Shown here in pieces: positions 2,923 through 51,806 of a stretch of DNA of 64,000 bases. Source of the stretch: Sycon ciliatum (taxonomy: Eukaryota; Porifera; Calcarea; Leucosolenida; Sycettidae). The number at the start of each line of letters is the position of its first letter. Position 1 is the stretch's first letter. Below the pieces are notes generated by a model. That model worked only from the letters and a program-made list of their open reading frames with translations, was not told the DNA's origin and searched no databases. The stretch covers positions 45,922,313 through 45,986,312 of the forward strand of contig NC_088645.1 in assembly GCF_964019385.1 (NCBI RefSeq), read 5' to 3'. Made by a program: the position numbers and the translations under genes.

Positions 2923-2960
2923 CAGGGAGTCGTAAAATACCGGTATTTTGCGACTCCCTG
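2923..2960. mobile_element. Micro-palindromic element, copy 1 (38 bp)
   Basis: Two 19-bp arms with no spacer: CAGGGAGTCGTAAAATACC followed by its reverse complement with one mismatch. It is flanked by a perfect 8-bp direct repeat AACTGAAC (2915-2922 and 2961-2968). The CAGGG end and 8-bp duplication match the hAT superfamily. There is no internal sequence at all. Confidence 0.85.
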
Positions 2961-3149
2961 AACTGAACTATCTCACACTCACCCCAGGGTAGCGCTGAAA
3001 CAGGAAATCAGCTCTGAACGTTCCCGCCAAAAAAGGTGCTAACAGTTGTCTTGTCTCTTGTCTCTCAAATTTGTCTTTCAAACACTGTTGTCTCTCTGTT
3101 CTCAGTTGACATCAGCATTGTGATAGATCTGATTGTCTTTCTCAAGGCG

Positions 3150-3222
3150 CTTCAGCAATCTCAGTCGGTAGAGCATGAGACTCTTAATCTCAGGGTCGTG
3201 GGTTCGAGCCCCACGCCGGGCG
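3150..3222 (+). pseudogene. tRNA-Lys(CTT) pseudogene or tRNA-derived SINE head
   Basis: Anticodon arm TGAGA-CTCTTAA-TCTCA carries CTT, the T arm GTGGG-TTCGAGC-CCCAC is intact, and the 3' acceptor strand is GCCGGGC with discriminator G. The genome then encodes CCA at 3223-3225. The 5' acceptor strand (CTTCAGC) pairs poorly with the 3' strand and the first D-stem base is changed. A perfect 3' half, a broken 5' end and a genomic CCA suggest a retrocopy or SINE head rather than a working gene. No T-run terminator follows closely. Confidence 0.65.
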
Positions 3223-3534
3223 CCAATTGTCGTCTGAGGGGTTATATCCAGACGATAGGCCCTTCTGATTACTCTCACATATCGCGTGCGCTACAAACAG
3301 AGGATTGATAAATAGGTTTCACTCCAAAGAGATTCTCAAGAAGAAGGCAAAGAACAACAACAAGAAGAATGAATGTGTACAAATGCACGCATGCGCAACC
3401 TGCGCAGTCCGCGCAGGCACGGACAACATCAGTACCTCTGCAAGACGGAGAGGCACATACACGATGACTCCTAATGGCGACGACTGTTTTCATATCAGTG
3501 CTGATTTCCACTACCAACGTTCACATCTCTAAAT

Positions 3535-3562
3535 CAGGGAGTCGTAAAATACCGACTCCCTG
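3535..3562. mobile_element. Micro-palindromic element, copy 2 (28 bp)
   Basis: The left 19-bp arm is identical to copy 1; the right arm is cut to its last 9 bp (GACTCCCTG), as if 10 bp next to the centre were deleted. It is flanked by a perfect 8-bp direct repeat CTCTAAAT (3527-3534 and 3563-3570). Confidence 0.85.
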
Positions 3563-3642
3563 CTCTAAATTTAATAAGAGTTATTATTGATATAAAGAGA
3601 ACAAATTCTGCTGTCATCGCCACACTACAACAAAGTCATGAA

Positions 3643-35969: not shown

Positions 35970-36488
35970 CAGGCCCGTCGCACCGACTTTGGAGGTGGGG
36001 CGGCCATGGAAGGGGGTTCCGGGGGTCCTCCTGCAGGAGAAAATTTCAAAAATTGAAGCCAATTGCAAGCATTTCCGTGTATTTGGTGCCATTTCAGTGT
36101 ACGGTAACTACAATGAAAGTCTTTTTGATTCTGCAACAAACGAAGAAGATGCTACGATCGGGGACAAACATTACCTTCCCCCGGGAAAAAACTTCAAAAA
36201 TTGAAGCCAATTGCAAGCATTTCCAGGCATTTGGTGCCATTTCAGTGTAACTGCAATGAAAGACTTTTTTCTTCAACAAACCACGATCGGGGACAAGGAT
36301 TTGTACTTGTCACGTTTGCGCTAAGCTGCGATCATTGTGCTTTGTTGTAATCAGGGAGTAGTACATGTACTATACCTACGGTATTGTACTACTCCCTGAT
36401 TGTAATGTGCTCCAAAAAAAAAAAAAAAAAAAAAAAAAACGGCCGAAAAAGTGGTGCGACCTCAGCCGCCCCGGCTGTGACGGCCTTG
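35970..36488. mobile_element. Non-autonomous DNA transposon, family B copy 2, with nested micro-palindrome
   Basis: Same ends as 30386-30842 (CAGGCCCGTCGCACCG; inverted CAAGGCCGTCACAGCCG), flanked by TGTCC (35965-35969, 36489-36493). About 62 bp longer than copy 1, explained by the micro-palindrome plus its duplication and by a longer A-run (36412-36440). Confidence 0.82.
36352..36398. mobile_element. Micro-palindromic element, copy 3 (47 bp), nested
   Basis: The right arm is a 19-bp unit (GGTATTGTACTACTCCCTG). The left arm is its complement with 6 extra bases (TGTACT), and TAC lies between. Flanks are GTTGTAAT / ATTGTAAT (7 of 8). The paralogous transposon at 30386-30842 has the uninterrupted site (TTTGTTGCAGCGTGCTCC near 30760), so this is a true insertion. 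Confidence 0.88.
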
Positions 36489-46745: not shown

Positions 46746-46805
46746 TCACCTCTACCAGAGAAGGCACAAGAGTTGTCTTGTGAAACTTGTCATAATGTTG
46801 CTGTT

Positions 46806-49800
46806 GAGGAGCCTGAAGTGTGTGTGTGCTGTTGTGGAGCCTGACGTGTGTGTGCTGTTGTGGAGCCTGACGTGTGTGTGCTGTTGTGGAGCCTGACGTG
46901 TGTGTGCTGTTGTGGAGCCTGACGTGTGTGTGCTGTTGTGGAGCCTGACGCGTGTGTGTGCTGCTGTGGAGCCTGACGTGTGTGTGCTGTTGTGGAGCCT
47001 GACGTGTGTGTGTGCTGTTGTGGAGCCTGACGTGTGTGTGCTGTTGTGGAGCCTGACGTGTGTGTGCTGTTGTGGAGCCTGACGTGTGTGTGCTGTTGTG
47101 GAGCCTGACGTGTGTGTGCTGCTGTGGAGCCTGACGTGTGTGTGTGCTGTTGTGGAGCCTGGCGTGTGTGTGCTGTTGTGGAGCCTGACGTGTGTGTGTG
47201 CTGTTGTGGAGCCTGACGTGTGTGTGCTGTTGTGGAGCCTGACGTGTGTGTGCTGTTGTGGAGCCTGACGTGTGTGTGCTGTTGTGGAGCCTGACGTGTG
47301 TGTGCTGTTGTGGAGCCTGACGTGTGTGTGTGCTGTTGTGGAGCCTGACGTGTGTGTGCTGTTGTGGAGCCTGACGCGTGTGTGCTGTTGTGGAGCCTGA
47401 CGTGTGTGTGCTGTTGTGGAGCCTGACGTGTGTGTGCTGTTGTGGAGCCTGACGTGTGTGTGTGCTGTTGTGGAGCCTGACGTGTGTGTGTGCTGTTGTG
47501 GAGCCTGACGTGTGTGTGCTGTTGTGGAGCCTGACGTGTGTGTGCTGTTGTGGAGCCTGACGTGTGTGTGCTGTTGTGGAGCCTGACGTGTGTGTGCTGT
47601 TGTGGAGCCTGACGTGTGTGTGTGCTGTTGTGGAGCCTGACGTGTGTGTGTGCTGTTGTGGAGCCTGACGTGTGTGTGCTGTTGTGGAGCCTGACGTGTG
47701 TGTGCTGTTGTGGAGCCTGACGTGTGTGTGTGCTGTTGTGGAGCCTGACGTGTGTGTGCTGTTGTGGAGCCTGACGTGTGTGTGTGCTGTTGTGGAGCCT
47801 GACGTGTGTGTGTGCTGTTGTGGAGCCTGACGTGTGTGTGCTGTTGTGGAGCCTGACGTGTGTGTGCTGTTGTGGAGCCTGACGTGTGTGTGCTGTTGTG
47901 GAGCCTGACGTGTGTGTGCTGTTGTGGAGCCTGACGTGTGTGTGCTGTTGTGGAGCCTGACGTGTGTGTGCTGTTGTGGAGCCTGACGTGTGTGTGTGCT
48001 GTTGTGGAGCCTGACGTGTGTGTGCTGTTGTGGAGCCTGACGTGTGTGTGCTGTTGTGGAGCCTGACGTGTGTGTGTGCTGTTGTGGAGCCTGACGTGTG
48101 TGTGCTGTTGTGGAGCCTGACGTGTGTGTGTGCTGTTGTGGAGCCTGACGTGTGTGTGCTGTTGTGGAGCCTGACGTGTGTGTGCTGTTGTGGAGCCTGA
48201 CGTGTGTGTGCTGTTGTGGAGCCTGACGTGTGTGTGCTGTTGTGGAGCCTGACGTGTGTGTGCTGTTGTGGAGCCTGACGTGTGTGTGCTGTTGTGGAGC
48301 CTGACGTGTGTGTGCTGTTGTGGAGCCTGACGTGTGTGTGTGCTGTTGTGGAGCCTGACGTGTGTGTGTGCTGTTGTGGAGCCTGACGTGTGTGTGCTGT
48401 TGTGGAGCCTGACGTGTGTGTGCTGTTGTGGAGCCTGACGTGTGTGTGCTGTTGTGGAGCCTGACGTGTGTGTGCTGTTGTGGAGCCTGACGTGTGTGTG
48501 CTGTTGTGGAGCCTGACGTGTGTGTGCTGTTGTGGAGCCTGACGTGTGTGTGCTGTTGTGGAGCCTGACGAGTGTGTGCTGTTGTGGAGCCTGACGTGTG
48601 TGTGTGCTGTTGTGGAGCCTGACGTGTGTGTGTGCTGTTGTGGAGCCTGACGTGTGTGTGCTGTTGTGGAGCCTGACGTGTGTGTGTGCTGTTGTGGAGC
48701 CTGACGTGTGTGTGCTGTTGTGGAGCCTGACGTGTGTGTGCTGTTGTGGAGCCTGACGTGTGTGTGCTGTTGTGGAGCCTGACGTGTGTGTGCTGTTGTG
48801 GAGCCTGACGTGTGTGTGCTGTTGTGGAGCCTGACGTGTGTGTGTGTGCTGTTGTGGAGCCTGACGTGTGTGTGCTGTTGTGGAGCCTTACGTGTGTGTG
48901 CTGTTGTGGAGCCTGACGTGTGTGTGCTGTTGTGGAGCCTGACGTGTGTGTGCTGTTGTGGAGCCTGACGTGTGTGTGCTGTTGTGGAGCCTGACGTGTG
49001 TGTGTGCTGTTGTGGAGCCTGACGTGTGTGTGTGCTGTTGTGGAGCCTGACGTGTGTGTGCTGTTGTGGAGCCTGACATGTGTGTGTGCTGTTGTGGAGC
49101 CTGACGTGTGTGTGCTGTTGTGGAGCCTGACGTGTGTGTGTGCTGTTGTGGAGCCTGACGTGTGTGTGCTGTTGTGGAGCCTGACGTGTGTGTGCTGTTG
49201 TGGAGCCTGACGTGTGTGTGCTGTTGTGGAGCCTGACGTGTGTGTGCTGTTGTGGAGCCTGACGTGTGTGTGCTGCTGTGGAGCCTGACGTGTGTGTGTG
49301 CTGTTGTGGAGCCTGGCGTGTGTGTGCTGTTGTGGAGCCTGACGTGTGTGTGTGCTGTTGTGGAGCCTGACGTGTGTGTGCTGTTGTGGAGCCTGACGTG
49401 TGTGTGCTGTTGTGGAGCCTGACGTGTGTGTGCTGTTGTGGAGCCTGACGTGTGTGTGCTGTTGTGGAGCCTGACGTGTGTGTGTGCTGTTGTGGAGCCT
49501 GACGTGTGTGTGCTGTTGTGGAGCCTGACGCGTGTGTGCTGTTGTGGAGCCTGACGTGTGTGTGCTGTTGTGGAGCCTGACGTGTGTGTGCTGTTGTGGA
49601 GCCTGACGTGTGTGTGTGCTGTTGTGGAGCCTGACGTGTGTGTGTGCTGTTGTGGAGCCTGACGTGTGTGTGCTGTTGTGGAGCCTGACGTGTGTGTGCT
49701 GTTGTGGAGCCTGACGTGTGTGTGCTGTTGTGGAGCCTGACGTGTGTGTGCTGTTGTGGAGCCTGACGTGTGTGTGTGCTGTTGTGGAGCCTGACGTGTG

Positions 49801-51806
49801 TGTGTGCTGTTGTGGAGCCTGACGTGTGTGTGCTGTTGTGGAGCCTGACGTGTGTGTGCTGTTGTGGAGCCTGACGTGTGTGTGTGCTGTTGTGGAGCCT
49901 GACGTGTGTGTGCTGTTGTGGAGCCTGACGTGTGTGTGTGCTGTTGTGGAGCCTGACGTGTGTGTGTGCTGTTGTGGAGCCTGACGTGTGTGTGCTGTTG
50001 TGGAGCCTGACGTGTGTGTGCTGTTGTGGAGCCTGACGTGTGTGTGCTGTTGTGGAGCCTGACGTGTGTGTGCTGTTGTGGAGCCTGACGTGTGTGTGCT
50101 GTTGTGGAGCCTGACGTGTGTGTGCTGTTGTGGAGCCTGACGTGTGTGTGTGCTGTTGTGGAGCCTGACGTGTGTGTGCTGTTGTGGAGCCTGACGTGTG
50201 TGTGCTGTTGTGGAGCCTGACGTGTGTGTGTGCTGTTGTGGAGCCTGACGTGTGTGTGCTGTTGTGGAGCCTGACGTGTGTGTGTGCTGTTGTGGAGCCT
50301 GACGTGTGTGTGCTGTTGTGGAGCCTGACGTGTGTGTGCTGTTGTGGAGCCTGACGTGTGTGTGCTGTTGTGGAGCCTGACGTGTGTGTGCTGTTGTGGA
50401 GCCTGACGTGTGTGTGCTGTTGTGGAGCCTGACGTGTGTGTGCTGTTGTGGAGCCTGACGTGTGTGTGCTGTTGTGGAGCCTGACGTGTGTGTGTGCTGT
50501 TGTGGAGCCTGACGTGTGTGTGTGCTGTTGTGGAGCCTGACGTGTGTGTGCTGTTGTGGAGCCTGACGTGTGTGTGCTGTTGTGGAGCCTGACGTGTGTG
50601 TGCTGTTGTGGAGCCTGACGTGTGTGTGCTGTTGTGGAGCCTGACGTGTGTGTGCTGTTGTGGAGCCTGACGTGTGTGTGCTGTTGTGGAGCCTGACGTG
50701 TGTGTGCTGTTGTGGAGCCTGACGAGTGTGTGCTGTTGTGGAGCCTGACGTGTGTGTGTGCTGTTGTGGAGCCTGACGTGTGTGTGTGCTGTTGTGGAGC
50801 CTGACGTGTGTGTGCTGTTGTGGAGCCTGACGTGTGTGTGTGCTGTTGTGGAGCCTGACGTGTGTGTGCTGTTGTGGAGCCTGACGTGTGTGTGCTGTTG
50901 TGGAGCCTGACGTGTGTGTGCTGTTGTGGAGCCTGACGTGTGTGTGCTGTTGTGGAGCCTGACGTGTGTGTGCTGTTGTGGAGCCTGACGTGTGTGTGTG
51001 TGCTGTTGTGGAGCCTGACGTGTGTGTGCTGTTGTGGAGCCTTACGTGTGTGTGCTGTTGTGGAGCCTGACGTGTGTGTGCTGTTGTGGAGCCTGACGTG
51101 TGTGTGCTGTTGTGGAGCCTGACGTGTGTGTGCTGTTGTGGAGCCTGACGTGTGTGTGTGCTGTTGTGGAGCCTGACGTGTGTGTGTGCTGTTGTGGAGC
51201 CTGACGTGTGTGTGCTGTTGTGGAGCCTGACATGTGTGTGTGCTGTTGTGGAGCCTGACGTGTGTGTGCTGTTGTGGAGCCTGACGTGTGTGTGTGCTGT
51301 TGTGGAGCCTGACGTGTGTGTGCTGTTGTGGAGCCTGACGTGTGTGTGCTGTTGTGGAGCCTGACGTGTGTGTGCTGTTGTGGAGCCTGACGTGTGTGTG
51401 CTGTTGTGGAGCCTGACGTGTGTGTGCTGTTGTGGAGCCTGACGTGTGTGTGCTGTTGTGGAGCCTGACGTGTGTGTGCTGTTGTGGAGCCTGACGTGTG
51501 TGTGTGCTGTTGTGGAGCCTGACGTGTGTGTGTGCTGTTGTGGAGCCTGACGTGTGTGTGCTGTTGTGGAGCCTGACGTGTGTGTGCTGTTGTGGAGCCT
51601 GACGTGTGTGTGCTGTTGTGGAGCCTGACGTGTGTGTGCTGTTGTGGAGCCTGACGTGTGTGTGCTGTTGTGGAGCCTGACGTGTGTGTGTGCTGTTGTG
51701 GAGCCTGACGTGTGTGTGCTGTTGTGGAGCCTGACGTGTGTGTGTGCTGTTGTGGAGCCTGACGTGTGTGTGTGTGCTGTTGTGGAGCCTGACGTGTGTG
51801 TGTGCT
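46806..51806. repeat. 5-kb minisatellite, 26/28-bp unit, with higher-order duplication
   Basis: About 190 units of TGTTGTGGAGCCTGACG plus GTGTGTGTGC, with TG-slippage variants of 26, 28 or 30 bp. Rare variants recur exactly 2154 bp apart: CTGCTG near 47117/49271, CTGGCG near 47159/49313, GACGCG at 47373/49527, GACGAG near 48570/50724, CTTACG near 48886/51040, GACATG near 49074/51228. Frames of 60-102 codons are artefacts. Confidence 0.97.

Follow-up and report, generated by a model that had tools for sequence, protein, structure and literature searches.

In this study, we analysed three micro-palindromes in a 64,000-bp stretch of the Sycon ciliatum genome (C3:45922313-45986312, hereafter the window) together with their relatives elsewhere in the genome, and we conclude from sequence comparison that each of them is very likely the repair scar of one excision of a P-superfamily element. 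The micro-palindromes are probably not mobile themselves and probably not of hAT origin. This reading rests on the 8-bp duplications that flank the palindromes, on a full-length element with the same ends and a P-like transposase domain, and on the structure of the junctions between the palindrome arms.

Micro-palindromes and their target-site duplications

All three palindromes pointed out by the sequence-only reading are present in the window, with the 8-bp flanking direct repeats it had described; the 19-bp arms that it took them to share are complete on both sides in the first copy only. This copy (2923-2960, 38 bp) consists of two 19-bp terminal-repeat stubs joined at CCGG, the right one carrying one substitution, and stands between two exact copies of AACTGAAC (2915-2922 and 2961-2968). 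The second (3535-3562, 28 bp, on the + strand, the other window features having no assigned strand) retains one complete 19-bp stub and the outer 9-10 bp of another, possibly joined through a CG microhomology, and is likewise flanked by exact repeats, CTCTAAAT (3527-3534 and 3563-3570). The third (36352-36398, 47 bp), of the AGTACAA type, combines a left stub that diverges after 13 intact bases, about 15 bp of filler, and a complete 19-bp right stub; its flanks, GTTGTAAT (36344-36351) and ATTGTAAT (36399-36406), agree at 7 of 8 positions. At up to three mismatches, the arm pattern has 4 matches in the window, against 0.01 expected. The window also holds a 5-kb tandem array of about 188 copies of a 26-bp unit (46799-51802), open reading frames that we read as resembling non-LTR retrotransposon polyproteins, and a sequence around 3144-3222 that we read as tRNA-Lys-like, which ends in GGTTCGAGCCCCACGCC and is possibly a tRNA-derived repeat; ARAGORN makes no call there.

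Searching the whole assembly (538,412,230 bases in 313 contigs) bore out the expectation of many copies. The 19-bp arm has 9,648 + 9,865 = 19,513 matches with up to three mismatches, compared to 188 + 199 = 387 for the reversed arm. With the same tolerance, the spacerless 38-mer occurs 1,136 times in its CGTAAAA type and 370 times in its AGTACAA type, two sets that may overlap slightly, each against a control of 0; a spacerless core of 28 positions occurs 2,708 times (control 1). The exact 28-mer of the second window copy is found 45 times, that copy included (control 0), and five of these copies cluster in 38 kb of C13, possibly as local duplicates. Some scars sit inside larger repeats: a 38-mer occupies a homologous place in two long AGTACAA-type elements (L117, element positions 2081-2118, and L118, about 1909-1946), and, judging from list coordinates, further 38-mers lie within long end pairs at C1:38084916 and C2:7949835. 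Being inside a mobile element, such a scar can be multiplied passively as a passenger. In two tandem arrays (C1:70398015-70398223 and L043:1327-1538, with periods of 57 and 87 bases), a scar is part of the repeated unit.

The 8-bp repeats behave like the target-site duplications of a DNA transposon. Among 19 distinct perfect 38-mers picked without regard to their flanks, the duplication is exact in 11, matches at 7/8 in 3 (14/19 at 7/8 or better) and at only 6/8 in 3, and is not recognisable in the remaining 2, which match at 4/8. When left flanks were compared with the right flanks of other copies, none of 342 pairs was exact and the best had two mismatches. Of the repeat lengths from 5 to 10 that we tried on these 19 copies, exact matches appeared at 8 only. 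That copies across the genome would carry their own 8-bp duplications, as the sequence-only reading had anticipated, is thus borne out, and the duplication is kept outside two inverted stubs, as expected of excision scars.

A larger sample covers the 100 exact arms that come first in the genome listing (C1, 0-12.6 Mb), 96 of which were examined; merging second arms gave 82 rows. Eight rows are ends of five long elements, and 50 are scars with a duplication at two mismatches or fewer, a set in which the scar end was picked partly by its duplication and some members are paralogs of one another. By eye, 12 more rows are scar-shaped with no clear duplication, and the last 12 are single arms, copies of repeat families or disrupted sequences, among which intermediate sizes are possible. 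In the 50 resolved cases the duplication is exact in 29, has one mismatch in 12 and two in 9; for one of the 50 (L021) the automatic choice of end was wrong, and its 38-bp scar has three mismatches. The 29 exact duplications have T at position 2 in 21 cases, A at position 7 in 22, and C or G at position 1 in 22. Two palindromes stand apart: a perfect 38-mer at L032:1489-1550 has inverted instead of direct flanks (ACATGTTTGTAC ... GTACAAACATGT), and a 40-bp near-palindrome beginning CAGGAAGTCGTACCCAAACTGG at L041:1758-1797, with four mismatches between its flanks and hence no duplication, is perhaps the scar of a third family.

A parent element of the P superfamily

The scar arm recurs, lengthened to 32-bp terminal inverted repeats, at the ends of long elements. 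These 32-bp ends have 290 + 309 = 599 genome matches with up to three mismatches (control 0), which makes about 300 long elements, assuming two ends apiece; in the 100 ends listed, pairs are spaced 2.1-3.5 kb apart, with one pair at 4.9 kb. The eight long elements that we read fall into two families with mosaic interiors. Six of them have an exact 8-bp duplication, which is absent in L114 and L116; by eye, the duplications of these six and of the parent element described below have T at position 2 and A at position 7 in 6 of 7 cases. We recognised no transposase in the eight, and seven translated fragments from four of them gave nothing over the Pfam cut-off.

The coding element was reached through a remnant. 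A profile search had returned 44 P-like RNase H matches in the genome, and a sibling P-like family (L119, C3:27706000-27711200) has a 983-aa transposase frame with a second gene tail to tail, the latter containing a SAP domain (E 2.3e-9). A search with the product of this second gene gave a match to L114 (E 1.8e-6) and a weak one, of 12 residues, to L118 (E 0.005); the best of 20 shuffled queries reached E 0.08. Used as a query, the 117-residue gene remnant of L114, a deleted long element, found 127 genome places, three of them at 99% identity (C5:12817545, C5:19789119 and C11:9290084). All three lie about 1.55 kb from a P-like RNase H match (C5:12819445, C5:19787239 and C11:9288204, respectively), and each of these matches is in a 1,002-aa frame. 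In the second of them, the right end of the element was predicted beforehand at about 19790620; in the 401 bases read there, an exact 32-bp repeat ends at 19790618 and is followed by GTTCGAAT. A 33-base word made of GTTCGAAT and bases 1-25 of the left repeat, searched with one mismatch allowed, has a single genome match, which is exact and starts at C5:19783685, so that the left repeat is matched over its first 25 bp.

The parent element thus spans C5:19783693-19790618 (6,926 bp), with GTTCGAAT on both sides. According to the search coordinates, this interval between matching duplications holds both the RNase H gene (PF21787 at C5:19787239-19787568, E 6.0e-18, in the 1,002-aa frame) and the second gene (the L114 remnant at C5:19789119-19789469, 99% identity). 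Because a TNP-like RNase H domain lies between its terminal repeats, we assign the CGTAAAA-type parent to the P superfamily on sequence grounds; its target-site duplication of 8 bp and its inverted terminal repeats, about 30 bp long, are P-superfamily traits as well. The AGTACAA family is tentatively tied to P by a near-identical end (29/32) and the 12-residue match. The full-length element that the sequence-only reading had asked for therefore exists, but its transposase domain is P-like, not hAT. As for the sibling family L119, the genome has four 983-aa frames of its kind with equal domain scores. Two of its three TNP-like domains are under the Pfam cut-off, among them the GTP-binding insertion PF21788 (E 5.4e-4, 20.8 bits against a cut-off of 24.8), and a THAP domain gave no match at E 0.1.

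Two further elements deserve mention. L115 (C3:37817463-37822372, 4,910 bp) has the same ends and the duplication ATGAAAAC and contains stretches that look foreign, with frames judged by eye to be EGF-like and C2H2-like, a possible case of gene capture. At L005:1501-1930 (C1:285527-285956) lies a 430-bp element with the duplication ATGCGGAT. Its start is formed by 25 bases of the 38-mer and its end by almost the last 16 bases of that palindrome, as though a scar had been the target of a different element with AGGGACC...GGTCCCT ends.

Junction structure and the probable origin of the palindromes

Scars in the larger sample measure 21, 23, 28, 37-39 or 45-57 bp, and 38-mers make up 34 of the 50 resolved cases. 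The shorter, trimmed forms of 21, 23 and 28 bp include copies with exact duplications of their own (L002, L109, L015, L095 and L103); the last three belong to four other exact 28-mers that we read, the fourth of which (L086) has none. Genome-wide, 116 + 66 = 182 scars carry a filler between full inner arms, and of those read, L024, L078 and L088 have exact duplications. In the 100 fillers listed (50 from the 116 and 50 from the 66), 47 are a single base, 21 are two or three bases, and 32 are four or more. The long fillers listed are 82-84% A+T and nearly all private, with 29 kinds among 32 when pooled: 7 kinds in 8 for the CGTAAAA type (ATAT twice), 23 in 24 for the AGTACAA type (AGTAT and its complement ATACT), and the 5-mer ATTAT/ATAAT once in each type, pooled by eye. 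Together with the lengths of 21-57 bp, these fillers give the heterogeneous, independent junctions expected of excision scars. In the AGTACAA type, 15 of 230 junction 5-mers are shared with the arms (shuffle mean 3.9, and none of 2,000 shuffles reaches 15); the eight CGTAAAA-type fillers show no such templating (0/67, shuffle mean 1.5). L001 (57 bp, exact duplication ATTATGGT) retains at least 40 bp of one L009-type end followed by a doubled ACTCCCTG, and has the look of partial copying and then joining.

Paralogous scars keep their centres, which are identical in the pairs L079/L111 and L112/L113 and differ by one base in the trio L016/L075/L094, so that scar centres show little sign of having been reworked in place. 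Rework in place is accordingly disfavoured as a source of the fillers, in this small sample of two pairs and a near-trio; abortive gap repair with random internal deletions is disfavoured by the dominance of stubs.

We propose that an element of the P superfamily with CAGGGAGTCGTAAAATACCGGGAGGCGACACG at its ends, or a member of the sister family with CAGGGAGTAGTACAATACCGGGAGGTGACACG, would insert with an 8-bp duplication and later be excised by a transposase that cuts one strand at the element's very end and the other some 19-21 nt inside. The donor flanks would be left with identical 3' overhangs, which could pair only via a self-complementary stretch, that is, the CCGG at the tip (nt 18-21) or the CG within it. 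Fill-in after pairing at CG or CCGG would give the exact 38-bp palindrome, the arithmetic being 20+20-2 for overhangs ending in ...ACCG and 21+21-4 for those ending in ...ACCGG, and 19-nt overhangs joined end to end would give the same 38-mer. Pairing at a CG further in would produce the 28-mer, and failure to pair would result in trimmed arms or AT-rich filler. The self-complementary CCGG tip can thus explain the constant 38 bp. From these products we infer the stagger length, the polarity of the overhangs, the repair pathway, and excision rather than stub insertion as the source of the palindromes. The stagger may be 19, 20 or 21 nt; 19-20 is favoured by the base that follows ...ACC in fillers of at least two bases (66 A, 21 G, 12 C and 7 T; n = 106, both sides and both types), since a full CCGG tip of 21 nt would call for G at this position, which is mostly A.

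The sequence-only reading had proposed hAT mobilisation, and the CAGGG start of the ends, the 8-bp duplication and its T at position 2 and A at position 7 do fit a hAT element that has been cut down to its ends. hAT genes are also common in this genome, with 150 scored PF05699 matches of 422 candidates. None of these 150 falls in C5:19783693-19790618, however, and the full-length element with the exact ends and a matching duplication carries a P-like domain. In 30 hAT loci (about 3.2 kb each, reaching 1.5 kb from the domain), one arm match with three mismatches was found (L072), which faces away from the hAT domain, and five hAT loci have matches with four mismatches. Stretches of CAGGGAGTTG near hAT genes (L045/L047/L048) were considered as ends, but these three loci stay similar beyond them (99.9% over all 3,240 bp), so that the stretches are not established as boundaries. 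Further, hAT excision forms flank hairpins and is not known to leave long stubs of the terminal repeats, unlike what we see here. hAT MITEs share the CAGGG-like start and the 8-bp duplication, whereas the palindromes in Sycon have a parent with a TNP-like domain and no interior at all. Taken together, a hAT origin appears extremely improbable.

Two other readings keep the palindromes as products of transposition, and we consider each of them very unlikely. In one, the 38-mer is a micro-element moved in trans by a transposase, and scars of other lengths are its decayed copies. Its many copies, a good number of them perfect (1,136 + 370 within three mismatches), with their own 8-bp duplications (exact in 11 of 19 perfect copies), agree with this, and in a single genome the filler-free 38-mers and the recurrent exact 28-mer (45 copies) are compatible with a mobile unit. 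Yet such a unit should carry a private centre to many sites, as a MITE does with its internal variants, and the long fillers are nearly all found once; the two sequence types, each with its own symmetric 38-mer, would need separate origins; and the 21-, 23- and 28-mers keep exact duplications too. The ends touch and should be hard to pair, a puzzle of synapsis that disappears under excision because a long element lay between the ends during pairing. In the other reading, a transposase complex that has lost the interior DNA inserts two end stubs, which are then joined at the new site. Judged from one genome, this explains the duplications, the fillers and the near-constant stub length equally well; we know of no precedent for it. 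That some of the 38-mers are fresh insertions of two bare stubs or of a 38-bp unit is unlikely; if they were, they would perhaps be the smallest known insertions made by a eukaryotic transposase. Excision repair yields the same product as stub insertion by a documented route (PMC2895639), and the 38-mer has nothing internal, while in Drosophila the P transposase binds sites that lie further in than the terminal repeats (PMC7776569). Overall, the claim that the micro-palindromes transpose is not supported, because their long fillers are nearly all private, their lengths vary as they do in end joining, and their architecture is that of Drosophila P excision.

Relation to known P elements and significance

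As described in PMC7776569, the Drosophila P transposase cuts one strand at the element's 3' end and the other 17 bp inside the terminal repeat, so that excision leaves 17-nt non-complementary 3' overhangs at the donor site. In Rad51-deficient (spn-A) flies, 68 excision junctions have been sequenced (Table 1 of PMC2895639): 14 isolates read TSD-CATGATGAAATAAC(AT)GTTATTTCATCATG-TSD and 5 are joined at TA, a further 14 + 4 arose through longer microhomologies with loss of the stubs, and others contain AT-rich insertions for which a template could almost always be identified. What the scars in Sycon share with these junctions is a duplication of 8 bp, inverted stubs from the two terminal repeats, a short microhomology where the stub tips meet, and AT-rich fillers that are often templated. 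They differ in the length of the stub (about 19-21 here, compared to up to 17 bp in the fly), in the single dominant product of 38 bp, whose share (34/50) exceeds that of any junction class in the fly table, and in that they arose naturally and number thousands within a single genome, as opposed to isolates from Rad51-deficient flies (PMC2895639).

Other P elements offer parallels for the parent. The autonomous elements of Anopheles gambiae (4,178-7,545 bp; repeats of 27-31 bp, duplications of 8 bp) are similar in size, repeat length, duplication and the existence of non-autonomous relatives; the P-MITEs of this mosquito keep their interior, whereas the palindromes here consist of stubs only (PMC1562414). 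The words "footprint", "palindrom" and "CAGGG" are absent from the main text of that paper. Zebrafish Pdre2/THAP9 also combines a P-type transposase with 8-bp duplications and deleted copies, but has 13-bp terminal repeats (CATACCTGTCAAC) and at least 50 related sequences (PMC10983969). In the literature that we searched on natural P scars and stub palindromes, we found no genome-wide description of such scars. Fly genetics has already documented this type of lesion; what is new, as far as this literature goes, is the scale, the longer stub, the end sequence, and a uniform product of 38 bp that passes for a repeat family.

If our reading is correct, repeat annotation may list excision scars as mobile elements, and what looked like a record-small "transposon" would instead be a census of thousands of independent repair events on identical broken ends in a non-model genome. 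The outcomes of end joining (microhomology, filler and trimming) would become measurable over evolutionary time, and the stagger of an unstudied transposase could be read from sequence. It would also become possible to compare the departures of P-like elements with the survivors, that is, about 2,700 filler-free scars with about 300 long elements.
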